From assembly GCF_030867095.1 (NCBI RefSeq), contig NC_081835.1, positions 38,609,892-38,673,891 on the forward strand: a stretch of 64,000 nt of DNA. Direction: 5' to 3'. A program made the translations under genes and the position numbers. Source of the stretch: Alligator mississippiensis. Its lineage: Eukaryota > Chordata > Crocodylia > Alligatoridae. This document shows positions 29,968 to 64,000 of the stretch, piece by piece (the first letter of the stretch is position 1; each line of letters starts with the position of its first letter). The notes beneath the pieces were generated by a model that worked only from the letters and a program-made list of their open reading frames with translations, ran no database searches and was not told where the DNA came from.

Positions 29968-30990
29968 CGATATATCTCCCCCTCTAAGTTGCCTTGTGGC
30001 ATCTGGCATGTGTCACCTCCAGTGCTTTCTCTGTCCAGCATCTGCTTCTGCCCTGTTTTCCGCTCCTCAGACCTTACTGTTAGTTCAGTGCATTGAGACA
30101 AAAAGTCAGCCACTTTGTTTGTGGTCCCTGGCTTGTACCCCACCGAGAACTTAAAGGGCTGCAGCATTAGTGCCTAGCTCATTATGCACCTGTTATCACA
30201 CTTAGACTTATGTAACCACTGCAAACGCACATGCTCCATTATGAGCATGAATTCCCTTCCTATCAGATAATAATTCATAGTTTCATAGTTCGTAGGGTGG
30301 GAAGGGACCTGAGCATATCATCAAGTCCAACCACCTGTCATGGAAGGAAAGAGTACTGGGGTCAAATGACCCTGGCAAGGTGTTCATCCAGCCTCCTCTT
30401 AAAGACCCCCAGGGTAGGAGCCAGCACCACTTCTCTTGGAAGTTGGTTTCAGATCCTAGCTGCCCTGACAGTGAAGTAGCACCTCCTGATGTCTAGTCTG
30501 AATCTATCCTCTGCCAGCTTGTGACGGTTATTTCTTGTCACTCCTGGTAGTGTTCAGGGGAACAGGGACTCTCCCAATGCCTGCTGGTCCCCCCTGACTA
30601 GTTTGTAAACGGCCACTAGATCCCCCCTCAGCCTTCTCTTGTGGAGGCTGAACAGGTTCAGGTTCCTTAGCCTTTCTTCGTAGGGCCTGTCCTGCTGACT
30701 CCTGATCATGCGGGTGGCCCTCCTCTGGACCCTCTCAATGTTGTCCACATCCCTCCAGAAGTGCAGCACCCAGAACTGGACACAGTACTCTAACTGTGGC
30801 CTGACCAGTGTCACATAGAAGGGGAGGATCACCTTCTTGGACCTGCTTGAGATGCATCTGTGGATGCATGACAAGGTACGGTTGGCCTTCCTGACTGCGT
30901 CCCCACACTGTCAGCTATGTTCATTTTGGCATCAATAATGACTCCAAGATCCTTTTCTGCCTCTGCACTGAGGAGAAGGGAGTTCCCCAG

Positions 30991-38177: not shown

Positions 38178-38661
38178 CACTCTTTTCTCCTCTCTCTGCC
38201 TCCCCCTCTCTCCCTCTTCTGTCTCTCCATTGTCACGCCCTCTTCTCTCTTCCCCCCCTATTCCCTCCCTCTTCTTTCTCTCCCTCTCTTCCACTTCTCT
38301 CCCTTTCCTTCTTTTTTTTCTCTCCCCTTCTCTCCTTTCTCTCTTCTTCCCTCCTTCTTCCTCCTCTCCCTCTTGTCTCTCCTTCTTGTCTCTCCTTCTC
38401 TTCCTCTCTCCTGTTTCTTTCCCTCGTCTCTTTCTCCCCCTCATCTCTCTCCCTCCCTCTTCTGTCTCTCTTCCATCTTTCCCTCTTGCCTCTCTTCCCT
38501 CGCCCCTCTCCTCTCTACCCTGCTCTTCTCTTTCCCTGTGTTCTCTCTCTCTCTCTCTCTCTCTCTCTTCCCTTCCCTTTTCTCTGTCTCCTGCTTCCCT
38601 CTCTCTCGCTCTCCCCTTTTCGCTCTCACTGTCTCTTCCCTCTGCTCTCGCTCTCTCTCTC
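38178..38661 (+). repeat. Pyrimidine (CT) tract, second piece
   Basis: C/T-rich throughout with a pure (CT)n near 38541-38568. It lies between the Gypsy 5' LTR and the 5' end of a CR1. Confidence 0.9.
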
Positions 38662-39386
38662 TTGTGGTGTGTGCTCCCTGGTTCAGTCTCTGGAGGGCTG
38701 GGTGTGGAGCTCGAGAAGGAGATAGGTCAGCTGTGCACCATTAAGGCCCACAAAGACTTCAGTGATGGCTTCTGCCAGACGCTTCTTCAGAAAAAAGGAA
38801 GAAAGAGAGGCGGAGACCGTGGCCAATGTGATAGCTAACCAAGAAGACCCACCCAAAGCAACCTGGAAGACAGTCACCTCATGCTCCAGGAAATGCAGGG
38901 CTAGGGCTGCTCCTCCCCCTGGTCCTGCATGACAGGTACACTCCCCTCCCCACTCATGAGGAGGCTCTGATGGTGACACTGGGACAGGAGGAAGGTAAGG
39001 AGCTTGCTGCCACCCGCAAGACCAGGCGCAAGGTGGTGGTGGTGGGGGACTCCCTCCTGCAGGGCACTGTCCAGCCCATGAGGTCTGCTGCCTCCCAGTA
39101 ATGGAACAGAGAGGATTCCCCAGGCTTATCTGGCCCTTCGAGTACTACCTTATGCTTCTCATCTATGTGGGAACTAATGACACAGCCAGGAGTAATCCAG
39201 ACCAGGCCATAAGCAACTAAAGGGCTCTGGGGACTGGGCTCAAGGGGTTGGGGACCCAGGTAGTCTTTTCTTCTGTGCTTCCTGTTTCAGGCCGTGATCT
39301 CAAAACAGAAAGATGCATCAAGGAAGTGAACTGGCAACTCGGACACTGGTGCCACTGAGAAGGCTTCAGAGTCCTTGACCACAGCA

Positions 39387-40912
39387 TGCACTTCATAGTT
39401 TCTAGGGTCGGAAGGGACCTGAACAGATCATCAAATCCGACCCCCTGTCCTGGGCAGGAATGAGTGCTGGGATCATTATACCCCAATCAGATATCTATCC
39501 AACCTCCTCTTGAAGACTCCCAAGGTAGGGGAGAACACCATCTCCCTTGGGAGCCCATTCCAGAGCCTGGCAGCCCTAACCATAAAGTAATGTGTCCTGA
39601 ACCTGCTCTCAACCAATTTGTGGCCATTATTCCTTGTTATCCCAGGTGGTGCCCAGGGGAACAGAGCCTCACCTATTCTTTTCCGGTCTCCCCTGGTGAG
39701 TTTATAGATGGCCACCAGATCCCCCCTCAGCCTTCTCTTGTGGAGGCTGAATAGATTCAGGCCCTTTAGTCTATCCTCGTAGGGCCTGGCCTGCTACCCC
39801 CTGACCATGCGAGTAGTCCTCCTCTGGACCCTCTCAAAGTTAGCCACATCCCTCTTGAAGTGTGGTGCCTAGAACTGGATGCAGTACTCCAACTGCGGCC
39901 TGACCAGCGCCGCATAGAGGGGAAGGATCACCTCCCCGGACCTACTTGTGATACATCTGTAGATGCACAGCAAGGTGCAGTTAGCCTTACTGACCGCTTC
40001 CTCGCATTGGCGGCTCATGTCCATCCTGGAGTCTACAATGACTCCAAGATCCGTTTCCACCACTGTGTTGTTCAGAAGGGTGTTCCCCAGCCTATAGGTA
40101 TGTTGCAGGTTCCTTTTCCCTAAATGCAGCACCTTGCATTGCATGCATTGAATTCCAGTCTATACTCATCCGCCCATTTCTGTAATCTGTCTAGATCTAG
40201 TTGGATTTTGTCCCTCCCCGCCAGCGTGCTCACTTCTCCCCGCATCTTTGTGTCAGCGAATTTGGACAGCATGCTTTCCATGCCCACCTCCAAGTTGCTG
40301 ATAAAGATGTTGAATAGCACAGGCCTGAGGACTGAGCCCTGGGGAACTCCACTGCCCACATCCGTCCAGGTCAAAAATGACCCATCTACCACCACTCTCT
40401 GGGTGTGACCATCCAGCCAATTTGCCACCCATCTGACCGTGTAGGCATCAACGCTGCAGTTGCCCAGTTTTTTTTATGAGAATGGGGTGAGAAACGGTGT
40501 CAAAGGCCTTCTTGAAGTCCAGGTAAATGACATCCACCTCAACGCCCTCATCCAAGGACTTTGTGATCTGGTCGAAAAAGGAAACAATGTCAGGCAGGAT
40601 CTGCCCGCAATGAACTCGTGTTGGTTGCCCCTGAGCATTACCTCCCATGCTGGGCCCCCGCAGATGTATTCCTTGATAATTTTCTCAAAGGTCTTCCCAA
40701 GGATTGAGGTCAGACTAACTGGCCTATAGTTACCTGGGTCTTCCTTTTTCCCCTTCTTGTAAATGGGAACCATGTTGGCCCTTTTCCAGTCCTCTGGGAC
40801 CTGGTCAGAGCACCATGAGCTCTCATACAGCCATGCCAGGGGCCCTGCTATGACCTCCACCAATTCCCTCAGTACCCTCAGATGAAGAGCATCTGGACCT
40901 GCTGATTTATAC
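39387..40912 (-). mobile_element. CR1 LINE nested in the larger CR1, first insertion
   Basis: CR1 3' end at 39390-39440 (tctagggtcggaagggacct). Minus-strand ORF2: [82 protein letters not shown]. The FADD box reads KFAD-TKM with one codon lost. Truncated at the 5' side. Confidence 0.92.
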
Positions 40913-41795
40913 TTCAGGGAAAGAGGACTCCTGGGAAGGGATGGCATCCACCTCACGAGGAAAGGCAAGTCCCTGTTCATGGCTAGGATGGCTGATCTTC
41001 TGGACAGGGCTTTATAAACTAAGATTGATGGGGGATGGGAATACACAAATTCAAACATGTCTAGGGATCAACATATAAGTAAGCCCTGTAGATAGGGACA
41101 CTGGGAGAGACACTTTTGTGGGTGCTGAGGGAATAGTTCTCCCTCAGCAGGACAGGAAGATGAGGGCCTCAGAAGGAGGACTTAGGTACCTGTACACTAA
41201 TGCCAGGAGCATGGGGAACAAGCAGAAGGAGTTAGCCCTCCTATTCTCCAGTGTGCATGATGATCTAGTAGGGATTATGAAGACCTGGTGGCACTCCTCA
41301 CATAACTGGAGTTTAATAATAGAGGGCTACACCCTGCCTAGAAGGGACTGGGTGGGGAAGAAAAGTGGAGGCATTGCTCTCTATGAAAGAGCAGTACACC
41401 TTCTTGGAGGCTGACATTGGCTCTGAAAATGGACAGCTTGAAACCCTGTGGGTCAAGCTGGGGTGAAGGGGTATGGTGCGGTGAAAGAGACCTAACAGTA
41501 GGTGTACACTACACCAAACTAGGGGGAGGAACTCAATCTGGAGTTCATCCGAGAATTGACTGAGGCCGCACATGCACGTGACATGCTCTTCGTGGGCAAT
41601 TTTAATTATCCAGACATCTCCTGGGAGGAACACGTGGCCAAGTTAGGTTGGTCGGTCACAGGTTACGCCTTCCTAACTTGTGATGAGTTCTTCCTGACTT
41701 AAGAGGTACATGGGCCAACCAGAGGTGATGCTCTACTAGACTTGGTCCTGGCCAAAGGAGACTACTTGGTGATCAATTTAAATACAGAGGGAAGT

Positions 41796-42990
41796 CATAG
41801 ATTCATAGATGCTAGGGTCAGAAGGGACCTCAACAGATCATTGAGCTCAACCCCCTGCCCTGGGCAGGAAAGAGTGCTGGGGTCAGATGACCCCAGCCAG
41901 ATGCCTATCCAGCCTTCTCTTAAAGACCCCCAAGGTAGGGAAGAGCACCATCTCCCTTCGAAGCCCATTCCAAGATTTGGCCACCCTCACTGTGAAGGAG
42001 TTTTTCCTGATGTCTAGCCTAAATCTGGTCTCTGTCAGTTTGTGACCATTACTCTTTGTTACCCCAAGAGGTGCCCTGGTGAACAGAGCATCTCTGGTTT
42101 CTTGCTGAGTCCCCCTAATGAATTTCTGGGAAGCCACAAGATCACCTCTCAGCCTTCTCTTCTGTAGGCTGAAGAGGTCCAGGTCCCTTAAGTCTCTCCT
42201 CATAGGGTTTGGCCTGTAAACCCTTAACCATACGAGTGGCTCTCCTCTGAACCCTCTCGAGGTTATCCACATCCTTCTTAAAGTATGGTGCCCAGAACTG
42301 GACATGGTACTCCAACTGCTGTCTGACTAATGCTGCATAGAGGGGAAGTATCACCTCTTTGGTTCTATTTGTCATGCATCTGCTGATGTATGATAAAGCG
42401 CAGTTAGCTTTGCTGATGATTTCATCACGCTGACAACTCGTGTTCATCTTGGAGTCGACTATGACTCCAAGACCCCTTTCCACTTCTGTGCTGCTGAGAG
42501 GGTCATTCTCCAGCCAGTAGGTATGCTGGATATTTTTACACCTTGGGTGCAGCACTCTACATTTGTCCTGGTTGTACTGCGCCCTATTGTGTTCTGCCCA
42601 CTTATCCAACCTGTCCAATATATATTCAGATCCTCCTTCCTCCCCTTCTTGAAAATTGGGACCACATTGGCCCTTTTCCAGTCCTCCGGGACCAGCCACG
42701 AGCACTCGAACATCTGTGCCAGTAGTTCTGCTATGACACTGGCCAGTTTCTTCAGCACCCTCAGATGAAGCTCACCTGGGCCTGCTGACTTAAACACATC
42801 CAGTCCATCCAAGTGACTGCACCAAGTCAGCATCGACAGTTGGTAAGCTGATGTCCCTCTGATGCCCAACTAAGAACCCCTTAGGAGACTTACCTTGACC
42901 CTTGTTCAAGAACACAGAGGCAAAAAACTCATTGAAGAGCCTTGTCCCCCCTATCTGTCATTAACTGCTCCTGCTCATTTAGTAGAGATC
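41796..42990 (-). mobile_element. CR1 LINE nested in the larger CR1, second insertion
   Basis: CR1 3' end at 41797-41850 (atagattcatagatgctagg). Minus strand: DLDLFSLQKRRLRGDLVA, RQQLEYHVQFWAPYFKKDVD, VERGLGVIVDSKMNTSC, then a jump to [18 protein letters not shown]; the central RT is deleted. Host CR1 ORF2 resumes at about 42990. Confidence 0.9.
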
Positions 42991-45160: not shown

Positions 45161-45560
45161 ATGAATCTCTTCTCTCTTCCCTCTGTTATCTCCTCTCCCT
45201 TCTTTCTCTTCTCTCTTCCCTCTCTTGTTTTCTCTCCTTCTCTCTCCCTCTTGTCTCGCTCTTCTCCCCCTCATCCTCATCTCTCCCTTTTCTCTTCCTT
45301 CTTCCTCTTAGTCTCCCTCACCTGTCCCTGTTCTCTCTTCCTTTTCTGTTCTCTTCATTCCTCTTCTTTTCACTCTCCCTCTTCCTTCTCCTGTTTTCTC
45401 TTCCTTTCCTCTCCTCCCTTCACTTTTTCTCCCTCCCTCTTCTTTTCTCTCTCCCTTCCCAGTTCTCTTCCCTCTCCTGTCCCTTCTCTCCCTCTTTCCT
45501 CTGTTCTCTCTCTTTTCTCTGTCTTTCCCTGTTTCTCTTCCTTCCTTCCCCCTCTCATCA
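45161..45560 (+). repeat. Pyrimidine (CT) tract, third piece
   Basis: C/T-rich sequence directly following the CR1 3' end, then non-repetitive hAT sequence (catcacaacgtgcttaacaag) from 45555 on. Confidence 0.88.
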
Positions 45561-48946: not shown

Positions 48947-49273
48947 CACTGTTTCTCAGCCTGTGGGTTACAAGAATATATGAAAGGGTTGCGAAGAAAT
49001 TTAAAAAATGGATTAAACTTTAAAAATGGATTCTGCTTTAAATGAGAAAAATGTGGGAAACTATGGCTTCTCCCTTGCAAGCTGGCAGAGTTCCAGCCTG
49101 CAAAGGACTGCTTGGGGCCCCTGCCCCACAGACCCACCCCCTGGCCCCACACACTGGGGGGCTGGGGCCTTGGTGTGGGGGGCAGCAGGTTGGCAGTGAG
49201 GGGCACTGGGTTGGGACTGGCCGTTGATGTTTATAAATGGATCCTGGTAGAAAAAAAAAGTTGAGAACTACTG
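48947..49273. mobile_element. hAT-like MITE (CACTGTTTCTCAGCC ends)
   Basis: Ends cactgtttctcagcct and, reversed, cagtagttctcaactt. Target duplication CTCTAAAG (48939-48946) and CTGTAAAG (49274-49281), 7 of 8 equal. It lies about 200 bases beyond the presumed GNL3 transcript end. Confidence 0.85.
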
Positions 49274-49448
49274 CTGTAAAGGAGAAACATTTCAAATAAA
49301 AGTGGAATTTGAAGTAATTCATGTCTGTTTATCCACACATTAAGTGAAAACAAACTGCATGCAGTTTCACTTTTATATTGCGTCAATTTAAATATCTACC
49401 ATGGTTAGTTAAAAAATGTAAAAATAGTACTGGGCTTAATTTTTTGAA

Positions 49449-49463
49449 CCCCCCCCCCCCCCC
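49449..49463. repeat. Poly-C tract beyond the GNL3 poly(A) signal
   Basis: About 15 consecutive C on the + strand (G on the transcribed strand), some 25 bases downstream of the GNL3 AATAAA. A G-rich element after a poly(A) signal can promote cleavage; here that is only a suggestion. Confidence 0.6.
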
Positions 49464-49487
49464 GCAAATACAGTTAAGCTCTTAACA

Positions 49488-49493
49488 TTTATT
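49488..49493 (-). terminator. GNL3: Poly(A) signal of GNL3
   Basis: AATAAA on the minus strand, 233 bases after the stop codon. It is followed on that strand by a G-rich run. First canonical hexamer downstream of the stop. Confidence 0.7.
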
Positions 49494-49725
49494 TAATACA
49501 AAATGCTTATACCAAACTATATCACAAGTGAAAACCCACAAGGGCATGCTGCATTATATACAATGTTTTACATGCCTATAGAGATGCTGAATCTCTGCTT
49601 AAGACCTGTGTTCTGTAGGATTTTAGCAGCACTGAAAGGCAGCAGGAAAGTGTTCAAAGTTGCTTACAAAGTTAACAATGCATTTAAAAAAAAAAAATCA
49701 GGCCTCTGAGTGCACATTTCTGCCT

Positions 49726-52700
49726 TTATGCATAATCTATGTTAAAATCATAAGCATCATCTTCATCAGCTGTTTTATCTAGGTTGTATGATAAAATATT
49801 GGGCTCTCCACCTTCGAGGGGAAAGAAAAAAAGCAAGCTGTTAGCTACAAGTTCTTGCTACCATTACTATATAGAATGACTTAAGAAAGCTTGTGGCTTT
49901 CAATACGTACCTGCCAGTTGCCTTTTTAAGGTTGCATCTTTCACTTTTGGTTTTTGATGACTTGTTTTGTTGTCCACCTGAATGTTATTTTCCTAAAACC
50001 AATACCAACAGATATTCTTATTAGTGTCAGTTTACCTGGACAAGTGGGAGGGTGGGGCAAAGCTTTTTCTTCTTCTTTTTGGAAGAGTGGGGAGGAAGGG
50101 CAGGGGGTATGTGTTAAGATTACAATTTATGTTGTCTTGCACTGCTCAATCCCACTCCACTTCCCTGTCTGTACACTGTTTAGAACTACAATTTTCAGGG
50201 CAGAGGTACTATATTTAAATTAATTATCTACAATTTTGATATGCTTATAGCCAGAAGAGATGGATATAGCATAACCTAATATTTCAGAAGTGTGCAGGGA
50301 ACACTGCTGACACATCTTACACTTTTTTTTTTTTGCAAGAGTTAAGTTGATAGTAGGCAGCTTGAAAACTTTGCCAGGGAAACTGGTTAAAAGAAAATGC
50401 TTGGAACTCCCCATTATGAACAGAGAAGCTAGAAATCCGAATGCACTATGAATATAAACCCTATCATATTAATCCGGTAGCTTTGTTTATTCAGTACTTT
50501 AATGATCAATCAGGTTCCAATAAGCTTATGTTACGTTCTGAATATTCAAGCTGGGCTCATTCTGGTTCCTGCATCATTATCAGACAATAAGTATTTAACA
50601 GCTAGAGCTTATAGTTTAACACTTTGATTCATGCATAAGCCAAACTAAAATCCAGCTCACTCTCCCAAAACTGGCAGTTCTATAGACACAAGGGGAAATT
50701 TATAAAAACAAAGAGTTAGTATTATAGGCTTTTTAAGTATAAGAGAAATATTTGAACAGGGCTCAAATGTGAGCAAGAAAGTACCATTTTCAGACGGTTA
50801 CTTTTCTGACCATAAGTTTTTCTCCCCTCTTTCTAGTTAGGCAAGTTGGGTGATCTCCCCTGCTGCTTCTCTACTGTACAACCTCTCTCAGTTTACAAGC
50901 CATGTTACCAATGGGTTTTATTTTTTTCAGGCCTGGGACTTGGAAGCCTTTGTGAAACTATTTAAAGCACCTCCTCAACAGCTGCTTCTTCCTCAGCGCT
51001 TTCCTGATCATTGGCTACATCATTCTCCTTTTCACTAGTTTCCAAGTCATCTTGTTCTGACATTTCCTCTTCCAATGCAGTCTCTTCAGTTGCCCCATTT
51101 GTCATGCCAGAAAACTGGAAAAGAAGACTGCTGGCCAAATTGGGATGTTTTACAGCTGTGAAAGGCATTAGAGAAATCAATTAATTGGCTTAGCAAAAGA
51201 ACTAAGTGATAGGTATTTGCAAGCACTAAGTCACTTTTATTCAACACTTTGCCAAGATAATATCTTTTAGAAAGAAGTCTGAAAATGAAGAATCTAGGTC
51301 TGAACTGACCTTGAAAATTGCCACAGTGACCAATTAGCAGGGATCCAGGTTTTCTGTTTCCCACGGAAAAACAGAAAAAACCATGGATTTCCTTATTTTA
51401 TCAGAGAAAAAAACCCCAGATTTGACCTTTTAGCAGAGAAACCTGTGAACTTTCCACTTCTGCAAAGAGCTCTGCAGGCTGGCGGAGGGGGGGGGGGGGG
51501 CTGGGGCTCTTAGTCACCCAAGGCTGGGCTCAGGCTCACTTCCCTTCCTGGAGCCTGTGAGCTAAGTGGGGCTTGCAGGGGGCTGGGGGGTTGTCAGTCA
51601 AGGCTGGGGGGCACTGGCAGGTGTTAGGGAAAGGCCTGGAGTGCCTGCCCAGCCAGCAGCACATGGACGGTGAGCAGCATGGTATCAGCCTAAGCTGGCT
51701 CCATTCCTCCACGTGCAGCTTCCCTGAAGGGCTGATAGCATGCCTCTCCGGGTCCACGTACCACTGGCCGGCTGGGCACTCCTGCAGGAAGCTGGCTGGG
51801 GGAGCAGGGAAGGTGGTGGGGAGAGCCCCACATAGAGTGCCCGCCCAGCCGGCAGCACATGGATCCAGAGTGGCGTGGTATCAGCCCTTCAGGGAAGCCA
51901 CACATGGAAGCACAGAGCCCACTTGGGTCGATACCATGCCGCTCTAAGTCCATGTGCCGCCAGGCGGGCGGGCACTCCAGGTCCGGCTTTCCCCAACACC
52001 TCCCCACTCCCTCAGCCCCCAGCCAGCTTCCCACAGGAGTGCCTGCCTGGCCGGTGGGGCATGGACCTAGACTGGCACGCTATTGGCCCTTCCGGGAAAC
52101 TGCACAGAAAAGTACGGAGCCCACTCATGCCAATAGTGCACTGCTCTGGGTCCACATGCCAGGCAGGCATTCCTGCGGCAAGCTGGCTGGGGACTGAGGG
52201 AGCAGGGAGGCATTGGGGAAAGCCTCACATGAAGTGCATGCCCAGCCAGCAGCACATGAACCCGGAGCAGTATTGTATCAGCCCTTAAGGGAAGTCACAC
52301 ATGGAAGTGTGGAGTCCGCTCAGGCCAATAGAGTGTCGCTCCAGATCCACATGCTGCCAGCTAGATAGGCACTGCATGTGGGGCTTTCCCCAACACCTCC
52401 CTGCTCCACCAGCCCCGCGGGAAGCTGGCTGGGAAGAACCCGCCTGGCCAGTGGCATGCGGATCCAGAGCAGCACACTATTGGCCCTTCAGGGAAGCCGC
52501 ACAGCACGAACGCAGGTCCCCCCCCTACCACCCAGGAGTGCACACTGCCACCGGGAGCCGGCCCCGCCTGCAGCAGGCAGGCAGCAGTGGGGGAGCTGGC
52601 TCTGTGGTCCTTCGGCTGCAGCAGCCACTGCCTTCTGTTGGGGGCAGGGAGCTGCGGACCAGGGTCCCTGCCCCCACAGCCCTGGCAGCTAGGGGGCAGG

Positions 52701-55700
52701 GACAAGGGGAGGTTGTGGGAGCTTTTTAAATCAAGAATTTGCAAATTTTTTTGTCAGGGGAAACCAGGATCCCTGCCAATCGGTTAGATGCAACAGCCGT
52801 GAGGATCTATCAGGCCTATGCTTATGAACACATACTCAGTACAAATAAATGCATGTTGCGATCTGGGCACCTGAGTACTCTCTGAATAGTTAAGCAACAT
52901 TTCCTACCTTTTGGGGAGGGAGTAACTGGAAACAGGAGGATTCCCTGACTTGTCTAGTGTTACAGTAAATGCATGACACAGCTAGAAAAGAGATTGTAAT
53001 CCATACCTTGTACTTGAGCCAGTAAATCAGATTTAGCCACACTGATTTTTTTTTAAGTTATGACAATAACTGGTACCATTATAGATTTTAGAATTTTACG
53101 ATGTTGGGGTTGCATCCTAATCTCATTCTGAAGACTCTGTTATGCAGAGATTTGGGGAGGAGGTTCAACTCAGAAAACCACTTCAGCCTTAGAGAAGCAT
53201 TAATTCAGGGGCGGGCAAAGTCCAGCCTGAGGGCCAGATGGGGCCCCTGGTAGATTATTGCCCCAGCAGCCCCTGCCCACGTTACTGCAGCTGGTTTCCA
53301 GGGAGACCCCAGCAGCAGCGGCACAGGACCAGGATTTTCATGGAGGCCAGAATGCAGCTGGGCAGGGAACTGCTCTAGGGCTGGGATCTTGTGGCAGTGA
53401 CAGCATAGTCCAGAACCAGGGCAGAGCTGCTACCTGCTGTCCACAAGCCCCAGGCAGGGGCGTACAGGCAGCGGGTCACATCTCTGCCCCGGCTCTGGAC
53501 CATGCCATCACCACTGCAAGATTCCAGCCCCAGCCCCTAAGCAGCTCCGCACCCAGCAGTGCACCCTGCTAGCACTGCTGAAGCCAGTATCCATGGAACC
53601 CTGACCCTGCATTGTCACAGTCCCGGTGCTGCTAGGGTCTTCATGGAAACCAGCCGCAGCAATGTGGGCAGGGGCTGCTGGGCAATGGGGTTTGGCCACT
53701 GGCCAGATCCGCCATTTTGCCCACTCCTGCATTAATTTCTTGAACAGCACTGCAAGCTGCTATAAACAGGACTTCAGATCACCAGAGATATATCCAGAAT
53801 GGAGTTTCTAGGAAAGCAGGAAAGTGAGTGTTAAGACATTTTAGAAGAGGGTCAGGAGAACAGCTTCATTCTCCTCCCAAAAGACAAAGACCAAACCCAT
53901 AGGCCATTAATGTTGCAAGTCAGAACTTTCTAGGAAAACCATTTTTTCCCCACAGCCTAACAAAAGATATCTGAAAGAAAGTGTGCGGCTATTCATGTTA
54001 CCTATAAAAGCTAGGGCGGATAAGTGGAAACACAGAACTAGCCAAATAAATAATGCATGGACACAAACAGCAATCAAATGCCTCATTTATCCCTAAAACA
54101 GGCCTCTCATTTGAGAGTTGCATGTTAAAACCACTACCTACTGTAACCATGATAGCGTGTTACAAAAGAATCTCACCATTAATTGTGCTCATGTTATCCT
54201 TTTCTAGCTCCTCTGAACTAAAACCTTTCTGCATTTCTGCTACCATCTCTTTAGTAAGATGTGACGACAGATTTTGAGACATAGGAGGTCGTGAGTGGTA
54301 ACTTATTTTGGCACTGGGAAAAGAAAATAACTGAATTAAAAACACTCATACACTTTAACCATTTCACGCATTTAAAGATACACATGAAACACTAATTTAT
54401 CTTCTTACACTTCTCAGCATAACCAATTCCTTACATGTAATGCATTTTTACAGAATTAAATTCTAACTGGATTTTGAGATATTTTAAGTGCTTGGATCTC
54501 TGCGAGAATTCCTTGGTTTCCTGGCATGATTTGTCACCATTTACACACACAGCCACTCGCTAATAAATCCTATTCTTTAACTAGGAAGAAAGTCAACACA
54601 TTCTGCTAGTCATTAAGACAGCTGAATTCATCTTAAACTCAAAGAAATATGGTAACCCCTATAAAATGTGAACATGGAGTAATGGGCTGTCTAAGCTACT
54701 TTTCTGTCAACACAAGAGAAATATTTGCTTAGGGGACAGACATTTTCTGGCAGACATCAGCACGTATTTTGGTAGAGGTAAGCACCCCTGCTGTTGTGTG
54801 ACATACAAGAAATCTTCTTAAGTTCCATAGATTAATTATTTGTGTGTAAAATAATTCATATTCCATCCCATTCTTGAAATTTGATGTCAAAAATATATTC
54901 ATCCAACATCCCCTTCCATGATGCAGGAAGAAAAAAAAAAAGGGGGGGGGGGGGGGGGGAAGACTACCTTAACCTTTCATGTAATTCATTAGTACCCAGA
55001 ATGCATTATATACAGAAACAAAATAAAAGTGTATTTACCCTGTCAAATCATAAAGCAGTAATTTGGCTGCACTCTCTGTATCAGGGACACCTCCCTTTTT
55101 CAGCATACCCCTTTTCTGAGCAAGTAAAGTTAAGAACTCCAGTGAATTTCTGAAGTCTGGTATATTGTAGCACAGCATTACCTGAAATAGAAAAAAAACA
55201 AAAAGACTAGTTCACATTTTCAGGAAAATAATAAATCAGTGATCTAAAACCAATACCTAACGCAGACGAAGAGAGAAGAGAGGGAGACGCTTTACATTTA
55301 CTTTTGGAACCAGACATTACAGGGTACTCCATCAGCAAATGCAGCAGCCACAATGTCTTTACCTTAGTTCAGGGGTTGTCAACCAAGGGTATGCATACCC
55401 TGGGGATACTTGGGAAAGTATCCACTCACTTCCCAGCCTGCTGCTCCATGTTCGGCTGACAGGGGGACCTTCCAGTCCACATCTGGAAGGGGGTACCCAC
55501 CAGAAGGGGTACACTCCTCAAAAAAAGTTGAAAACTCCTGCCCTAATTGAATCACACATCCCATTCTACTGTACCTACAAATCAGCACGCCATTTGGGAG
55601 AGACCCAGCTTTAGGTGAAGACATGCATTTGGAGCTGTTTCAAAAGAGAAACTGCATGAAGCAATGTTAAAGTTGGAGTGATTGTGCTACATTTGTATTG

Positions 55701-58700
55701 TCATCTCCTTTACACACAGCCATTAGAAAGTAACAGCTACTTCTCTTTTGAAACACTCCAAGAGTAGGTGTGTACATACCCACTGTTGAAATAAATGGGA
55801 GTCAGTTTGAGTATCAGTCTTAATACTGGGCATCTAGGAATGAGATCAGAGTTGGATCTGATGTCTTCAACATAACAGTAAGACATTGAGCATATCTTCA
55901 TTTCTCACTCCATTAGTAAAATCATCAAATTATAAGAAAAGTTGCGCAGCAAGAAGCTAAAAGGATCTGGTACATTTTATCTGCCAGTCAACCAGATATA
56001 ACAGGCAGAACTGGCTGTCTGTATGAAACACCCCCCCAAAAAAAAAAAAAAACTTCCCCCGAGGGAAGCCTTCATGCTCAGCTTTCAGTAGGTCACATTC
56101 TACCACTGTACAAATACGACCACTGTTTGCCAGAATGAGCCTTTTTATTAGAGCAAGAGCAGTAGACAGAACCTAAATATTATTGACCAACTTACGTGCT
56201 GCTTACTGCAGTGTTTCAGAACAGCATTAACTGCATCTAGTAAGTTTCTGGATTCTTCAACAGCTGTGAGGCTTCTCAAAGCCAGAGCAAGAGTAGAGTT
56301 GGAGGGAGACACAACTATGCTGGGGCTGTCCAATATGATGATCTCTTTGTCAATATGCACTGTTTGCATGCACCTTTGAGAGAGAAAATGCATCACTCAA
56401 GTAGGTAAACATAAATCAATCAGCTAAATGTATTTGGTGAGAAGCAGCAAGACATGAAGCTCAGTGTTGGATTGAATAAAAACTCCTCATACAAAGTCAG
56501 TTCCAATACATCATCATGTGCTTCATGTACATTAAAAGCCTAAAACTAAGTAGTCTTGTAAATGGAGAACTCGTAGGTTCTATTCGTAGCTGTCACCAAC
56601 TCACTAAAAGAGTATGGGAATTCCATAGCTTATTAAAGCCTTCTGACCTTCTCTCTAAAACGTATTATTTGCATCTACATAATTCAGCACAATATACAAG
56701 AGTGACAGCAATAAGACTGAAAATTTTTTACACATGGTAATTCATAAAGGGATCTCTCTTTTTCATTTCTTTAAACTACAGAGTAGATCAGTATAACTAT
56801 CGTACCCCCATTTTAAAGATAGTCAGACTATAACACAGACAGGTACAGTAACTTGTAGGGTTAGATCTTGATTCCTAGTTACAAATTTACTAGGCACATT
56901 CTCCTGATGACCAAAAAGGTGACTAACAGCTGCAGGAAGTTCAAAAGATTAGAGATCACATAAAAAAAAAACCCTATTATGGATACTAGAGGTACACCAA
57001 TACATCGGTCCATATTGTACTGGCACCGAGAAAAGGAAAATTGACATTATCAGCCATCAGCTTTTTTTGGCTGATGTGGACGATAAGGTTACCGTTAAAT
57101 GTTCCGTGCATGCATGCAGTCACACCATACACGCAGTCAGGAATGCAGCCAGGCAGCTTGGAGAACACCACCTGGCCAGTAAGTCTGAAGTGGGGGAGGG
57201 GAGGGCAGATAGAAGCCCGCATGATAAGGGAGGGAGTGGGGCTGGGGCTGAGGCAGGCCCTGCCCAGTTGGGCCAGGGCAGGATGGAGCTGTAGGAGGCT
57301 CATTGGAGGGGGGGGGGGGGGGGTCCTGCCACTGAGCACCTTGGGGGAGGCATAGGCGACATGTGCCCCCTGGATCTGTGCATGGGGTGAGGGCAAGCTG
57401 CCCACTGTGGGCTTGAGACCGGAGCTCTTTCCGACAGGGGGGCTGGGCCAGGTCTGCGTTTGGGGTGGTTAGGGGCAGAGCGGGCAGCGGTGCTGGGGGG
57501 GGGGGCGCTATTGAGGTGCACTACAGCCACCCCAAAATTCGCTGTAGCCCCGCCCCGCTCTCAGCACCGCCGCCTGCTCCACCCCAAACGCAGAGCTGGC
57601 CCAGCCCCCTAGTTAGGAAGAGCCCCAGTCCCAAGCCCAGTGGGCAGCCTGTCCTCGCCCCACACACAGATCCAGGGGGCATGTGCCCCCCATACCTCCC
57701 CTGGGGTGCACGCAGCAGCGGGAGCCCCCCCTGCACTAGCCACCTGTGGCTCTGTCCCATGCCCCACTCTGTCCTGCCCAGGCAATGCCTCTCCTGTTCT
57801 ACTCCCTCCCTCACCATGGGGGCATCAATCTGCCCCCCGCACCTGCCAATGCCCCTTACCCCAGATTTAACAGCTGGATGCTGCTCTCCAATGCATATCA
57901 GCCAATATGGCTGGTCAATAAATCAGCCATTGGTATTGGCCCAAAAAAATCTTTGTAAGTACACCCCAAATAGATACCATATTTAATAGACAATTAGGCT
58001 TAGTTTATTGGATTGCTGCTGCCATAAATTTATCACATGGCCCACCCATGGGTGTCTTCAACTTTAATGAAGCAGGTCCTGAGAAATCAGATCCGTATGT
58101 ATGAACAACCAAATGTGAAACTGATCATACCAGTTCCCGCAGTCCACACCTCTCTATTTAAGATCAGCAGGTTTCAATAAATCCTTCAGAACATCAGTCC
58201 TTGTCTTGGTGCGTGTTAATGAACAGACAATAAGCAAGGTTTGAATATCCCTGCCTTAGGCCAGATTTTAAAAGCAGTGAATAATTTACACAATATGAAA
58301 CATTTACTTCAAAATTAATATACAACAGTGCTTTCATCCTGACAGACCCCACTACACTTTGTAAACGTGCAGAGAAGGTGTTTTGATCTTTCCAGAATAC
58401 AGGAGCTATGCACTGTAACTTTAACTGATTAGAGCAGGCACTGAAGAAAATTGTAGAAATTAAGACTACTAGGGTAAGCAAACAGCAACAAGAAAAGTCA
58501 AAACTAGTGGGCTTTTATCAGATTAAACTTACTTGGTCACACCTCTCAGTGGCCCCACATTACAGACACGCACTTCCTTCAAACTATTGATTATGCTACT
58601 CTTTCCCACATTTGGAAAACCTAAGGACAGACACAGAAATGGTAAAAAAAAAAAAATAATTATTAAACAAGGAACTCTAGTCCAGAGGTTTTCAACCTAT

Positions 58701-59914
58701 TTTCAGGAGTGTACCCCAGCCAGACGGGGGGGGGGGGGGGGGGGAAAGAGGGGAACACGGGACGGGACGGGACGGGACGGGACAGGACAGACAGCCAGAT
58801 GTGGAGCAGGGGGGGGATTGCATGCGGCGGTGGCACAGTGTAGTGGATGGCAGTCATGGCCGCCACATACAAGCCCCACCCCCCGCGTTCAGCTGGCCAA
58901 GCAGCACCTGTGTGGCCCACAGAGAGGAGGTGGTGCCCTTCATCCCCCACAGCCCTACTCCTGGGAGGCAGTGGCGTGGGTAGTAGCACTCCATCCTTGC
59001 CTGCCCACACAAGCCCCCTAGCCCCTTTCACATACCTCCAGTTGACATCCCCTGCTCTAGTCCACATGACTAGAGTTCAGAACTACTGGCTTTAGGGGTG
59101 CCCTTAGGAATTATGTATAGTCAGTGTGATTCACAAGGTAAATCCTGTGTCCTATAATCAAGCTAGACCCATGCTTCAGTTTCAGTTAGTCATGAATATC
59201 AGGACTCATCTACAAAAGATAAATTTTGGGTACAAGTGGAACATTCATCGCTAGCCATGAGGGTGCAGCTATACCAAGTCTCACATCAAAGATAAAAATG
59301 TTCTGTAAGAGACCACACAATACTTCAAAGCCTTGGATGCGAGAAGGAACCCTCCGATTTCATTATGTTGCCCACCTTCATAGTATTCCTGTAAGAGAAA
59401 GGAGGGGAAAAAAGTACCTATCACCCCAACTTTAACGGCCTTCTCTTGAGTCTTGCAGTGCTTTCGAAGAAGCTTCAAAAGGCATTCCTTTCCAAAGCAC
59501 ATATTGCTTACTGACACATCTTTATGTCCCCTTTTCTTTGTGAGCTTCTCCTGATGTAAAATTCAAAACGGGAAAAACAAAGAACATGCATTTTAACTGT
59601 ATGCATGTAAGGAATTAAATCTTAATTCAAAAAGTTAAAAAATATTTATACATGAAAGGATCACTGTATCACTAAGCAAAAAAACATCACCTGCAGTTAT
59701 ATAAATTAGCAAAAAAACCCAAACCCCTTAGACATCTGTAAAAGTTAGCACTGACTGGGAGAAATCAGAGTTGGATCTTGCCATCTTCACTCTTGCGTCA
59801 AGAGTTTTTGCTTTTCATCATGTTTCAACCCAGCCATGAGCAAAGGTGGAGGGAGAAAATATTATTGGGGGGAGGGGGGGGAAGGGAGGGGCTGAGTGCG
59901 TGCTTGTGCATGCG

Positions 59915-59950
<36 letters not shown>

Positions 59951-62900
59951 ACCCTAGCAGGTAAGTCTGTTGTGAGGAAAGGGCGTGGGGGGTGCAGATT
60001 GAGGCCCCCACAGCAAGGGAGGGAGATTGAGGCAGGGGTGAATGGGGCCTTGGGCCCGGCCTGGGTCGTGGGAAGCTTGGAGCCCATGCAGCTCGTATAG
60101 GGGCCTCCTACTGCTGTGTGCACCTCAGCAGAGGCCCAGGGCACATGTGCCCCCCGGATCTGTGCATAGGGCAGAGGTGGGCTGGGGCACTGTGCCCCAT
60201 TGACCTGGGAGTGGTGCAACACTATGTGCCTGCCACCGCGAGGGGGGCATAGGCTGTGGTGCAGTCAGTGCGTGGCAGCACATAGTGTCACGCCACTCCC
60301 AGGGCAGTGGGGTGCAGAGCCCCAGCCCACAACAGCAGCCTGCCTCCACCTCGCGCATGGATCCAGGGGGTACATGCCCCCAGGCCTCCACTGGGGTGCA
60401 TGCAGCCGCAGGAGGCTTCTCCACACCCAGGGATGAGCCACTTGGGCTCTGAACATCCCATGACCCACTCCAGCACTAATGCCCTATTCACCCCAACCCC
60501 TACCCCACTCCATCCCTCACTGTGGGGGCCTCAATGTGTGCTCCCCCCCCCAACAGACTTACCTGCTGTGTGGTGGGCAGTGCTCTACACACCACTGGGC
60601 AGCTGTGACTGCTTGTCTGTATCTGTGCATGCCCCTCCCCCACTGCAGCCACACAGGCTGCCCTTTGGCCCTCTACACTGCCATGCATTTGGGAGGGCTA
60701 AGCCCCATTAGCCCCGGCCTTCTGCCACCAATGGCCACAAGCAAGAGGATTCAGTCTCACATAAGACAAGACTGAAATGCTCTTACCGTACTCCGGTCTT
60801 TCAGTTGCATTGAGGATTTAAAAGCAACTGCTGGCAACTCATTCTTCAAATAACATAACCATTGCTCCAAGTTCTCCCTTGGCACCAGATCTGGAATAAA
60901 ACAGGTTTTTCACTGTACAAGCTTCAAATATCACTCTTGTAACATTCATATAGCCTAGAATCAGATGAGTCACTAGCTTATTTTCCCATTGTATAACAGG
61001 TGCCTACACAACTAAACACATACAGTAAAATCTCTGTTATCTGGCATCCCTGGTAAGGGGATTGCTGGTTATGTAAAAATTTGTTATCTGAAATAATCTG
61101 GCAGGGGGAGAGAAAGGTGGCAATAGCTGTATGCCAAGCAGCAGCAGTGCATGACAGTGGGTGGTGGGGGAGTGGTGGTGGCCGCACCTGGAGCAGGGGT
61201 GGGGCTCTAAAAAGTGTAATTATATCACATCAGTTGGTAGGAAGTTGGGTCAGAAAGCTGCACCTTTATAGACTAAGAGGCTAAACAAGCAAATGAGCTC
61301 AGAATTGGATCTTACAGTATTCAGCGGTATTTCAGATTTGTTTATTTTCCTCACAGCTCATATATTAATGCAGAATCATATGATCAACTAAATATCTGTA
61401 CAGACAGAAATGTTTCACTTACCAATTTTGTTTAAAACCAGCACTAGTTTTTTTTTTTCTCCAGACTTGGTAATAATCTGTTCTATCTGGGGACACCGAC
61501 AGCCCAGGGGATCTCTGGCATCTAAGACCTCTAGTACTATATCTGAAGCCTCAATCACCTATAGTGGAATGAAGAACATAGACTGTCATTCACTGGATTA
61601 AAAACAGCTTCACAGAGTCTGTCTAAAAGCAAAAATATTGTTCCCTCATTATAACGAGGTTTTCATTTTAAAGGACAATTAATAAAATCAAGTTTTATAA
61701 GTGGGAATAATAAAGAAAAAGGGCTCAGGAAAAAAAAATGCATTCATTTTTGAACCACACAAGTCAAACAAGGTACACATATGAGAATCAAGATTCAGGT
61801 AACTGTCATCTTTGAACAAGGGCTGTCAATTTATCGCTGTTAATATGCACGATTAACATGTTAATTGATTCTTGTGTTAATTTTTTTAATGCATTAATCG
61901 CACACATGGTTTTGGAGCCCACTGGGCTCCACCTGGGCTCAGCTTCACCGCTGTCACTGCTGCCTTGTGGCCATCGGAGCAGCAGTGACAAGGTGCCAGC
62001 TCTGGGCTGCTGCAACAGGAAGTGGGGCGTGGGGGCACAGACACATGAGCTGCTGCAGCATTGGTCAGGAATGCAAGCAGCCCTGTGGCATGTAAAGCAG
62101 CACCCAGCAGACAAGTCTGTGGAGGAGGAGTGGGAATGGGGGCAGGGGGGCAGACTGAGGCCAGTGAGAGAGGGAGTGGGGCAGGGGATGGCTGGGGCGA
62201 GTTGTGGAATGGAGCCGCGGGAGGCTTGTCCAGGGACATGGGCGGGCTCCCTGCCACTGTGCACATCCCCAGAGATGGCACGGGGAGCATGCGCCCAGCC
62301 TGCAGCAGGTAGCCTGCCTCCACCCCACGCACAAATCCAGGGGGCATATGCCTCCTATGCCTCCCCCGGGGGTGCATGCAGCAACCAGGAGCTGTGCCCC
62401 ACTTCCTCATGCCCCTGGACGAGCCTCCTGCGGCTCGTGATTAATTGTGACTAATTTTTTAAATCATGCAACTAATTATAATCAACATTTTAATCATTTG
62501 ACAGTCCTACTTTGATTCTGAATTCTCTAGAACTCAAAGGTCAATATAGACTCCTTTTTCTGACAATAGCTTAATAATCAAAAGGGGCAGCAACTTGAAA
62601 ATTAAGTTAATTAGAAAAAGACTTAAGAAAAGTTATGTAGCATGCTTTTCCCAGAATCCTCTGCCAATTTTATGGTTTTGCAGTCATTTTCCTTTCTCTT
62701 AAAAGCAAATAAACAAATGTTTCCCTCCTGTGTCAATGTGCAACACAAGAAAAAACCTTGTTTATTAAGATAAAACAGTGAAACCAGTTATATACAAAGT
62801 GTTACAGAACACAGAAAGAAGTCCCCAAGCGCCCAGCTCCTCTCCAGTTGCTGGAGGATGGGAAATATCACAGTTACCTGTAAGAATTGTAAACAGGATG

Positions 62901-63474
62901 TTTTTAAAAAGAGTGCTTTTTAAGTTGTTCTCTCACTCTGGTAACTAAGACAGCACCAACAGATCAAGAACGGGTCAATTTTTCTGGACAGATGCACTTA
63001 TTATATTTAATTTTATGAGGCACCATATTTTTTTACCAAGCAATTCTAGTGCGTGTGTATACACATGTGCACACACGTATGTTGGGGAGGTAGGGGGGAC
63101 AACTTTGTTGCTGTTTTCTTGTAATTTCAAGTAATAAGAGATTTACAGCAAACCCAAATAATTTAATCGTTTTCATCATTTTGCTGACAAGTCATTGCAT
63201 TTCTAAGCCAATTCTCACAAGCAACTGAGCCTATATCAACCTGTTATTGCTAGATCAATAATTATAAATGTATAAAAAACACTTAATTTCAAGTCAGAAC
63301 ACTGAAACCACTTTCATCTTTTTACCTTTAATTGGGAAGTAGGGTTTAATATTAAATATCTCCAACCAAAAAGATAATTCGAATACCTACCTTTTTAAGT
63401 TCCCTGCAAAATGATTTTGCTGAATTTTTATCTAGCTGTTTGTTAGATTTTGTTTTCAGTTTCACAGTGGATTC
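49726..63474 (-). CDS. GNL3: GNL3, nucleostemin (guanine nucleotide-binding protein-like 3), last eleven exons
   Basis: Exons in transcript order: 63474-63391, 61558-61423, 60890-60787, 59550-59418, 58620-58533, 56373-56196, 55181-55039, 54313-54177, 51155-50971, 49977-49911, 49811-49726. All GT-AG with matching phases; 446 codons plus TAA, corresponding to human residues from about 115 to 549. Nucleostemin is a nucleolar GTPase needed for pre-rRNA processing and stem-cell proliferation. The GTPase is circularly permuted: [24 protein letters not shown], then G4 (LNKID, split over two exons), then G1 (GFPNVGKSS), then G3 (ILDSPS, with S for the usual G as in human). [15 protein letters not shown] and KKGGVP follow. 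The acidic tail ends [13 protein letters not shown]. The basic N-terminal nucleolar-targeting exons lie beyond position 64000. The donor of exon 50971 (GAG/GTGCTT) is weak but phase-consistent. Three SNORD19-like genes and SNORD69 sit in its introns. Confidence 0.97.
51338..52775. mobile_element. hAT-like element (CAGGGATCC ends) with repeated interior
   Basis: Ends cagggatccaggttttctg and, reversed, cagggatcctggtttcccc. Target duplication CCAATTAG (51330-51337) and CCAATCGG (52776-52783), 6 of 8 equal. Between 51560 and 52500 four to five units of about 150-200 bases recur in alternating orientation, each with gcccagccagcagcacatgg and atcagcccttnagggaagc or their complements. In a GNL3 intron. 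Frames of up to 142 codons in it lack any domain. Confidence 0.85.
53206..53729. mobile_element. hAT-like MITE, family B (CAGGGGYGGGCAAA ends)
   Basis: Ends caggggcgggcaaagt and, reversed, caggagtgggcaaaatgg. Perfect 8-bp duplication CATTAATT at 53198-53205 and 53730-53737. Internal halves are largely inverted copies of each other (tttccagggagacccc against its complement). In a GNL3 intron; same family as 12881-14366. Confidence 0.93.
54941..54959. repeat. Poly-G run after an A-rich run
   Basis: About 11 A then about 18 G in a GNL3 intron. Simple sequence; likely to vary in length and to trouble sequencing. Confidence 0.8.
55370..55540. mobile_element. Short hAT-like MITE, family C (CAGGGGTTGTCAACC ends)
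   Basis: Ends caggggttgtcaacc and, reversed, caggagttttcaactt. Target duplication CCTTAGTT (55362-55369) and CCCTAATT (55541-55548), 6 of 8 equal. 171 bases, in a GNL3 intron, about 300 bases from a SNORD19 copy. Confidence 0.85.
55837..55911 (-). ncRNA. SNORD19: Box C/D snoRNA, SNORD19 family (copy nearest the gene's 3' end)
   Basis: Minus strand, in a GNL3 intron. C box ATGAAGA (55901-55895; consensus RUGAUGA, one change) and D box CTGA (55849-55846). A nine-pair terminal stem, GGAGTGAGA with TCTCATTCC, closes the boxes and has a single G-U pair. The guide before the D box is CAGATCCAACT; ten bases pair with the 18S rRNA stretch AGUUGGAUCU, and the fifth base upstream of D pairs with the G known as Gm683. 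Processed from the spliced intron and used for 2'-O-methylation in the nucleolus. Which mammalian paralogue it matches is not resolved. Confidence 0.9.
56452..56528 (-). ncRNA. SNORD69: Box C/D snoRNA SNORD69
   Basis: Minus strand. Perfect C box ATGATGA (56517-56511) and D box CTGA (56464-56461), closed by a perfect nine-pair stem ACATGAAGC / GCTTCATGT. Internal CTGA and ATGAGGA near the middle fit D' and C'. The guide before D, CAATCCAAC (then A), pairs nine bases with 28S rRNA GUUGGAUUG; the fifth base from D addresses the G known as Gm4464, next to the A-loop. It lies 78 bases upstream of the 3' splice site, the classical spacing for intronic C/D snoRNAs. Confidence 0.93.
56987..57969. mobile_element. 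hAT-like element, family A (GGTGCACC ends), 1 kb
   Basis: Ends tagaggtacaccaatac and, reversed, ttggggtgtacttac. Target duplication ATGGATAC (56979-56986) and ATAGATAC (57970-57977), 7 of 8 equal. Sub-terminal inverted blocks (cagccatcagctttttttgg against ttggcccaaaaaaatc) match those of 18364-19449. The GC-rich core is itself an imperfect inverted repeat with runs of G near 57307 and 57494. In a GNL3 intron. Confidence 0.9.
58683..59054. mobile_element. hAT-like MITE, family C
   Basis: Ends cagaggttttcaaccta and, reversed, caggggatgtcaactgg. Perfect 8-bp duplication CTCTAGTC at 58675-58682 and 59055-59062. Inside are a run of about 19 G (58726-58744) and a pentamer repeat (GGGAC)n at 58759-58790. 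In a GNL3 intron, 62 bases from an exon. Confidence 0.92.
59755..59833 (-). ncRNA. SNORD19: Box C/D snoRNA, SNORD19 family (middle copy)
   Basis: Minus strand. Perfect C box ATGATGA (59821-59815) and D box CTGA (59768-59765). Terminal stem CTGGG..GAAA with TTTC.CCCAG, nine pairs with a small asymmetric bulge. The guide CAAGATCCAACT before D pairs twelve bases with 18S rRNA AGUUGGAUCUUG, targeting Gm683; the best match of the three copies. In the GNL3 intron 59551-60786. A transposon target duplication begins at the next base (59834). Confidence 0.93.
59842..60734. mobile_element. hAT-like element, 0.9 kb, abutting a snoRNA
   Basis: The left end aaaggtggagggagaaaat is weakly similar to the reverse of the right end (ccattggtggcagaaggc). 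Target duplication CCATGAGC (59834-59841) and CCACAAGC (60735-60742), 6 of 8 equal. The GC-rich middle is the shared module (caggtaagtctgttgtgagg; tgcatggatccagggggtac). A (CA)n repeat lies at 59919-59948. In a GNL3 intron. Confidence 0.72.
59919..59948. repeat. (CA)n microsatellite
   Basis: About 15 CA units inside the transposon at 59842-60734. Confidence 0.9.
61293..61361 (-). ncRNA. SNORD19: Box C/D snoRNA, SNORD19 family (copy nearest the gene's 5' end)
   Basis: Minus strand. C box GTGAGGA (61354-61348, one change from consensus) and D box CTGA (61302-61299), closed by ATGAGC / GCTCAT. The guide AAGATCCAATT pairs eleven bases with the same 18S segment, one as G-U. It begins 61 bases from the intron's 5' splice site, a tight spacing. 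The weaker C box and guide suggest the least active copy. Confidence 0.85.
61818..62509. mobile_element. hAT-like element, family D (GGGCTGTCAA ends)
   Basis: Ends aagggctgtcaatttatc and, reversed, taggactgtcaaatgatt. Sub-terminal blocks attaacatgttaattg and attaattgtgactaattt are AT-rich and inverted. Target duplication CTTTGAAC (61810-61817) and CTTTGATT (62510-62517), 6 of 8 equal. The centre is the GC-rich module shared with families that have other ends. In a GNL3 intron. Confidence 0.85.
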
Positions 63475-64000
63475 CTGAATGCAAAAGCAGATAGAAGGAA
63501 GGGTGAAGGACATTTGAAACCAACAATTAGAACATTGCCTTTACATATATAATGGGAAATAACAGCAAACAAGAGCTCCAGTATTTATAATAGCATGAAA
63601 AAGCAAAACTTATGTTATTTAGAAAAGACTATACATTTGAGAATCACATTTATCATTCGTATAAATTTGAATGGAATCTCAGGTGACATTTCTAATACCC
63701 ATGATGCATCTATCCAAGTACTACATGAAAAACTGTAAAATTTTTAGATAGTGTTAGATAGTTAGATAGTGAACATAAAACCTTCTCACCCCTTAAAACT
63801 GTAGGGGCCAACTTCTGGCAGGCAGGTACCCTACCCTGCCCCAGTGCCAATCCCCTACCCCTACCCAATCTGCTGCTCTGCTTTCTGCCCTATGCTCCCT
63901 GCTTGATCCGCTGCTCTGATTTCTGCCCTATCTGCTGTTGTGCTTCCTGATCTGCCAGCATGCCACACACAAAGGCTGCCCATGGCACTTGTGTCTGACA
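62510..64000. other. GNL3 intron sequence and upstream, no further exon seen
   Basis: Apart from the exon at 63391-63474 this is AT-rich intron. I searched the right 525 bases for the lysine- and glutamate-rich exon expected next (human residues about 57-115) and did not find it, so it must lie outside. From 63800 a GC-rich stretch (ccctaccctgccccagtgcc) looks like the start of another transposon cut by the window edge. Confidence 0.55.

Follow-up and report, generated by a model that had tools for sequence, protein, structure and literature searches.

Three introns of one Alligator mississippiensis gene each hold a short minus-strand segment resembling a SNORD19-type small nucleolar RNA (snoRNA), which raises the question of whether these are genuine guides, whether they address one target, and how old their triplication is. 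Within the window (the whole 64-kb stretch analyzed), the host was modeled as a partial minus-strand gene, 55039..63474, of seven exons (63474-63391, 61558-61423, 60890-60787, 59550-59418, 58620-58533, 56373-56196 and 55181-55039) with AG/GT borders throughout. These exons give an open product of 288 aa, which, by sequence, matches in PDB most closely the chain 8fkp of Guanine nucleotide-binding protein-like 3 (GNL3; E 9.5e-96, residues 7-285). The intron spans originally proposed for the three segments (61422-60891, 60786-59551 and 56195-55182) agreed to the base with the splice sites found. Intron numbers were set by anchoring on chicken numbering, the model being without the gene's 5’ end; on this scale the SNORD19-type copies occupy GNL3 introns 5, 6 and 9, respectively.

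A search of the 64-kb window with 4227 Rfam families placed all three copies above the gathering cutoffs, on the minus strand. The 61.3-kb copy in intron 5 (61284..61364; Rfam match 61286-61359) reached 50.9 bits to the SNORD19 model (RF00569, cutoff 35, E 1e-6). The intron 6 copy at 59.8 kb (59750..59838; Rfam match 59753-59834) scored 58.3 bits to the SNORD19B model (RF01183, cutoff 50, E 3.6e-7), an agreement that extends to its stem, and the 55.9-kb copy in intron 9 (55835..55912; Rfam match 55833-55906) scored 39.1 bits to RF00569, about 4 above the cutoff of 35 (E 9.2e-4). The Rfam matches, the splice-site model and the GNL3 match together uphold the original prediction that each of three GNL3 introns holds a SNORD19-type snoRNA, and the Rfam check that it proposed returned SNORD19, SNORD19B and SNORD19. 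We put at about 95% the probability that all three are box C/D snoRNAs encoded in GNL3 introns, as SNORD19, SNORD19B and one more SNORD19-type copy, with SNORD69 in another intron of the gene. Other weak Rfam matches, to miRNA and other families, lay under their cutoffs, mostly in G+C-rich repeats; a 25.4-bit match of the 61.3-kb copy to the U2-19 model (cutoff 39) was taken as chance.

The family assignment is reflected in the sequence elements of each copy. All three have a CTGA D box, an intact guide core (ATCCAA) and, by sequence, a terminal stem, and the stems differ as had been described: ATGAGC/GCTCAT in the 61.3-kb copy, CTGGG..GAAA/TTTC.CCCAG in the 59.8-kb copy and GGAGTGAGA/TCTCATTCC in the 55.9-kb copy. 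The C box is canonical (RUGAUGA) only in the 59.8-kb copy (ATGATGA) and has one or two departures in the other two, ATGAAGA at 55.9 kb and GTGAGGA at 61.3 kb; the SNORD19 Rfam consensus is itself AUGAGGA. A common type of guide before CTGA had been proposed, and the box and core are indeed present in every copy, but the exact guide AAGATCCAACT is carried by the 59.8-kb copy alone, the guides at 61.3 and 55.9 kb being AAGATCCAATT and CAGATCCAACT. Chance matches in an A+T-rich intron might be suspected with so short a guide and with the 55.9-kb copy so close to its cutoff. However, the guide plus D box motif AGATCCAAYTCTGA occurs exactly three times in the 64-kb window, each time in one of these introns, against 0.0011 expected from base composition, and the three Rfam matches all lie in a single gene, with relatives already documented as hosts; we regard chance as extremely improbable.

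Box C/D snoRNAs are stable RNAs bound by fibrillarin, NOP56, NOP58 and SNU13, with the C and D boxes close to their ends and a guide of some 10 nt or more beside box D or D’ that sets the modified base at D+5. The family match, host, stems, boxes and in-register pairing of the SNORD19 array are observed here; its processing, protein binding and methylation are predicted from established C/D biology. After splicing, exonucleases would trim each intron to a C/D core guarded by the core proteins and the terminal stem. The segment upstream of box D would then pair with 18S rRNA, and fibrillarin would methylate the 2’-O of the 18S G facing D+5, which corresponds to human 18S G683. Pairing was assessed against 18S and a eukaryotic 28S fragment taken from outside this species' own rRNA. 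As originally proposed, all three guides address one nucleotide: D+5 lies opposite the same 18S G in each copy, within 10-12 contiguous pairs. The duplex is strongest for the 59.8-kb copy (-18.6 kcal/mol, 12 pairs), followed by the 55.9-kb copy (-14.3 kcal/mol, just 10 pairs) and the 61.3-kb copy (-14.1 kcal/mol, 12 pairs including two G.U, one of them at D+2). The three copies are predicted to be ordinary redundant guides.

Perhaps only some of the copies are active, with decay under way in the 55.9-kb or the 61.3-kb duplicate. SnoRNAs favor a distance of about 70-80 nt to the 3’ splice site; SNORD69 lies 77 nt away, and the 59.8-, 61.3- and 55.9-kb copies 202, 403 and 655 nt. Distance, a score of 39.1 bits against a cutoff of 35 and the shortest pairing all make the 55.9-kb copy the suspect, as do the G.U pair at D+2 and a weak fold for the 61.3-kb copy, which shows no gain over shuffled sequences (z 0.24; 114/200 equally stable). 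Yet D boxes, guide cores and terminal stems are intact throughout, and the 55.9-kb copy has the best fold of the three (z -2.70; 4/200 shuffles as stable), ahead of the 59.8-kb copy (z -1.55; 13/200). We consider decay fairly unlikely. An internal 7-bp hairpin in the 59.8-kb copy (ACTCTTG/CAAGAGT) beats 200/200 shuffles. The Rfam entries RF00569 and RF01183 (clan CL00048) have in common with all three copies the C/D core, terminal stem and guide, whereas their structure line lacks the internal hairpin seen in the 59.8- and 55.9-kb copies.

Likeness among the three SNORD19-type cores exceeded 300/300 shuffles in every pair. With guide and D box masked, the pairs were reached by 53, 22 and 8 of 500 shuffles. 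Flanks outside the snoRNAs showed no clear similarity between the introns, and no sequence was common to the D’ guides of the three copies. The selection on function and the intron-to-intron duplication first proposed are putative, a single species being compared. A C/D scan free of family models recovered SNORD69 and the 61.3- and 55.9-kb copies on the minus strand, missed the 59.8-kb copy and recovered nothing on the plus strand.

The SNORD69 locus, absent from the original prediction, lies in GNL3 intron 58532-56374 (56448..56532, minus strand; Rfam match 56451-56529) and scored 72.9 bits to RF00574 (cutoff 37) in the window. It has the guide CAATCCAACA and a CTGA D box, and makes 10 contiguous pairs with the eukaryotic 28S fragment. 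ATCCAAC is common to the SNORD69 and SNORD19 guides in equal register from box D, and thus GUUGGAU is common to their 28S and 18S targets. SNORD69 might on these grounds be a retargeted SNORD19, its changed guide reading a 28S site with the same core. The equal register and single host gene favor this, as does the rank of the SNORD69 model on the 55.9-kb copy, second of 4227 families with 24.2 bits (next, 19.7). However, those 24.2 bits fall below the cutoff of 37, the model is eighth among the 24 matches listed on the 61.3-kb copy and missing among the 7 on the 59.8-kb copy, and SNORD19 models are missing among the 22 matches on the SNORD69 locus. Once guide and D box were masked, moreover, 117, 30 and 55 of 500 shuffles scored at least as high as SNORD69 did against the three copies. 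A common origin was tested and not established; it is unproven, and we judge retargeting doubtful. Equally doubtful is the wider proposal that all four GNL3 snoRNAs form one family, in which a few guide changes made SNORD69 from SNORD19 (18S GUUGGAU to 28S GUUGGAU) and SNORD19 copies moved between GNL3 introns among amniotes with the guide fixed. A shared origin, if true, would offer a modest example of how a guide switches targets. The array adds one more, apparently unannotated, case of redundant C/D guides spread across several introns in a gene for ribosome biogenesis, and is of some interest for turnover, in that the copies' intron positions may differ between lineages.

We compared the array with those of chicken and mammals; three papers (PMC2832892, PMC8522698 and PMC10234308) mention neither these snoRNAs nor their host. 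PMC2653536 lists in its Table 1 three variants of HBII-108 (SNORD19; chicken name GGgCD19) in chicken GNL3 introns 5, 7 and 9 and HBII-210 (SNORD69; GGgCD66) in intron 8, and gives HBII-108 an 18S target over 11 nt adjoining box D. Chicken and alligator thus agree in having three SNORD19 variants and one SNORD69, a SNORD19 guide adjoining box D with an 18S target, and SNORD69 one intron ahead of the last SNORD19 copy. They differ in the middle copy, which the table entry places in intron 7 in chicken and which, once the remaining snoRNAs are aligned, falls in intron 6 in alligator.

Relics were sought in 49000-64000, filters off, with a model that combined the three copies with two Rfam consensus strings. 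Among 33 matches, the three copies, which had gone into the model, scored 61.6-66.7 bits, and the runner-up reached 4.9. Intron 7 (59417-58621), the place of chicken's middle copy, held no significant SNORD19 relic by model search or shuffled alignments. A frame resembling a C/D snoRNA in this intron, with its C box at 59251 and its D box at 59202, was rejected: its score of 26 in the family-free scan was reached by 3/20 randomized sequences, and its likeness scores to SNORD19 by 234-482 of 500 shuffles. A candidate in intron 8 near 56775 scored 32 against the SNORD19B consensus, the strongest of 35 intron-by-query tests, with 0/100 whole-intron shuffles reaching it; it too was rejected, as 47/1000 local shuffles of this A-rich sequence reach 32 and scores of 33-37 occur at unrelated positions of the window.

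Several SNORD19 copies had been claimed for human GNL3, and more than one is on record for mammals: a human table gives SNORD19 and SNORD19B as box D snoRNAs of host GNL3 with site 18S G683, and a sheep gene list runs GNL3, SNORD69, SNORD19C, SNORD19B, SNORD19, PBRM1. Family and host of mammalian SNORD19, SNORD19B and SNORD69 are those found here, and the G683 target of the first two is the one predicted here. The 61.3-kb copy fits the SNORD19 model and the 59.8-kb copy the SNORD19B model, so the SNORD19/SNORD19B split is likely old, and to that extent a triplication older than the mammal-reptile split, as first suggested, is partly supported. Two positions fit it less well: the third copy follows SNORD69 in transcript order, whereas SNORD19C stands between SNORD19B and SNORD69 in the sheep list, and the middle copy differs in intron from chicken if the other three snoRNAs are aligned. 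The 55.9-kb copy may, judging from such positions, be distinct from mammalian SNORD19C.

The three-copy state could then have arisen separately in each lineage, by copies moving between introns or being gained and lost, with the 55.9-kb copy no orthologue of SNORD19C. With SNORD19 (5), SNORD69 (8) and the final SNORD19-type copy (9) as anchors, the middle copy falls in intron 6 against chicken's 7, and the sheep list, if in map order, would put SNORD19C between SNORD19B and SNORD69. Against this, the single chicken entry and the single sheep list behind it may be misnumbered or out of map order, exon numbering here depends on anchoring in a model without the 5’ end, and neither intron 7 nor intron 8 holds a significant relic; we hold separate origin to be plausible at somewhat less than even odds. 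In its overall form, the GNL3 SNORD19 array with SNORD69 is an ordinary arrangement, already known from chicken and mammals.

Seven joined exons, with AG/GT borders throughout, gave an open product of 288 residues carrying the Pfam domain MMR_HSR1, and its top PDB sequence match was Guanine nucleotide-binding protein-like 3 (8fkp, E 9.5e-96). An Rfam scan of the entire window returned four matches at gathering level, all on the minus strand: SNORD19 at 61286-61359 (the 61.3-kb copy, 50.9 bits), SNORD19B at 59753-59834 (the 59.8-kb copy, 58.3 bits), SNORD69 at 56451-56529 (72.9 bits, in GNL3 intron 58532-56374) and a third SNORD19 copy at 55833-55906 (the 55.9-kb copy, 39.1 bits against a cutoff of 35). 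The original prediction had placed SNORD19-type snoRNAs in introns 61422-60891, 60786-59551 and 56195-55182; these coordinates equal the modelled exon borders base for base, and each intron holds a SNORD19-family match at gathering level. The guide with box D, AGATCCAAYTCTGA, occurs exactly three times, once in each of these introns, versus 0.0011 occurrences expected from base composition. The three copies are real, were named correctly and are ordinary.

In transcript order, the GNL3 introns in the window carry SNORD19, SNORD19B, none, SNORD69 and the third copy; the Rfam scan found no match in the remaining intron, 59417-58621. C/D processing prefers a distance of ~70-80 nt between snoRNA and 3’ splice site. 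SNORD69 lies 77 nt ahead of its 3’ splice site, and the SNORD19 copies lie 202, 403 and 655 nt ahead of theirs.

Over 49700-63480, a family-free scan for terminal stems combined with C and D boxes yielded six candidate frames, all of them on the minus strand and none on the plus strand; SNORD69, the 61.3-kb copy and the 55.9-kb copy were among them. The 59.8-kb copy, with its interrupted stem, was not recovered. At least one frame appeared in 10/20 randomised sequences, three of which reached a score of at least 26; the scan alone is therefore weak proof below a score of ~31. The terminal stems predicted for the SNORD19 copies were present in all three. Fold z-scores were 0.24 (61.3 kb), -1.55 (59.8 kb), -2.70 (55.9 kb) and -2.27 (SNORD69). 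Internal stems are already known in C/D snoRNAs. Between the D’ and C’ places, we found a 7-bp hairpin in the 59.8-kb copy (ACUCUUG/CAAGAGU, equalled in stability by 0/200 shuffles), another in the 55.9-kb copy (AUGUCUU/AAGACAU, 12/200) and a 6-bp hairpin in the SNORD19 consensus (CAGUCU/AGACUG, 40/200); inspection by eye revealed none there in the 61.3-kb copy.

Pairing with the 18S stretch AGUUGGAUCUUGGG was counted outward from box D. The 59.8-kb copy forms 12 pairs (-18.6 kcal/mol), the 61.3-kb copy 12 including two G.U (-14.1 kcal/mol) and the 55.9-kb copy 10 (-14.3 kcal/mol). The predicted pairing bears out a common 18S target, with D+5 opposite the first G of UUGG in every copy. GTTGGAT lies in two contigs of eukaryotic SSU rRNA (L003 and L004, Rfam RF01960), and the longer vertebrate-like 18S stretch in a third, L002, for which the Rfam scan gave no match. 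These three, with L005 and L006, are bacterial metagenome-assembled contigs that contain eukaryotic 18S rRNA fragments. Rfam identifies four group I introns in L003, and only the first ~80 bases of L002 are vertebrate-like 18S, followed by other DNA.

One published table assigns SNORD19 and SNORD19B (box D, host GNL3) to human 18S G683 (PMC8210301), as expected if human GNL3 hosts more than one SNORD19; a second pairs SNORD19 (HBII-108) with 18S-G683 and GNL3 (PMC6466398). By the table and legend of the former, the site is methylated in mouse, not in zebrafish or yeast (PMC8210301).

Local alignment of the snoRNA cores scored above 300/300 shuffles in each of the three SNORD19 pairs. Once the guide and box D were masked, the pair scores were reached by 53/500, 22/500 and 8/500 shuffles, so the likeness of the copies is mostly guide and boxes. 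Among six comparisons of 120-nt flanks, up- or downstream, five gave scores that between 105 and 300 of the 300 shuffles also attained; for the sixth, the upstream flanks of the 61.3-kb and 55.9-kb copies, the figure was 13/300. Core and flank alignments thus show kinship inside the snoRNA, not the route of duplication. Duplication inside the host gene is described as the usual route for C/D families (PMC8178906), likewise for chicken snoRNAs (PMC2653536). A search for relic SNORD19 copies in GNL3 introns 4 to 10 left nothing that stands. A C/D-like frame at 59251-59199 (minus strand, 9-position stem, intron 59417-58621) was rejected as within the randomised-sequence range and unlike SNORD19.

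Elsewhere in the window, LINE-type reverse transcriptase pieces lie on the minus strand at 32414-33157 (RVT_1, E 6e-20) and 40474-41064 (RVT_1, E 4.5e-4, under Pfam’s cutoff); similar ORFs at 42142-42768, 30554-30907, 2302-2997 and 11068-11469 had no Pfam match. A G+C-rich minisatellite (periods 49-51 and 150) occupies 31448-31951, and long CT-rich tracts at 28672-29005, 38364-38662 and 45166-45456 produce long spurious ORFs rich in Ser/Leu/Pro.

ATCCAAC occupies D+2 to D+8 in the SNORD69 and SNORD19 guides alike, implying GUUGGAU at both rRNA sites. The 28S target was taken from L001, a eukaryotic LSU rRNA contig (Rfam) that starts one base before GTTGGAT. Each guide makes 7-8 contiguous pairs with the other’s target versus 10-12 with its own. 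The SNORD69 model was second among ten matches listed for the third copy (24.2 bits, under its cutoff of 37), eighth among 24 for the 61.3-kb copy and absent among the 7 for the 59.8-kb copy; SNORD19 models were absent among 22 listed at the SNORD69 locus. With this mixed outcome, we consider a common origin of SNORD69 and SNORD19 unlikely.

For chicken, a published table lists three GGgCD19 (HBII-108) isoforms in GNL3 introns 5, 7 and 9 (18S-G-644, 11 nt at box D) and GGgCD66 (HBII-210) in intron 8 (28S-G-3949, 10 nt at box D) (PMC2653536, Table 1). We infer that 18S-G-644 and human 18S G683 are the same nucleotide. With the SNORD69 intron set to 8, SNORD19 falls in intron 5 and the third copy in intron 9, as in chicken, whereas SNORD19B falls in 6 and the chicken middle copy, by that table, in 7. 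The sheep interval is listed as GNL3, SNORD69, SNORD19C, SNORD19B, SNORD19, PBRM1 (PMC8327097); if the listing follows the map, 19C is flanked by 19B and 69, whereas our third copy follows 69. Such differences suggest copies gained, lost or moved, or else numbering errors. Since chicken and sheep GNL3 arrays are on record in these sources, the alligator array is orthologous, not new.
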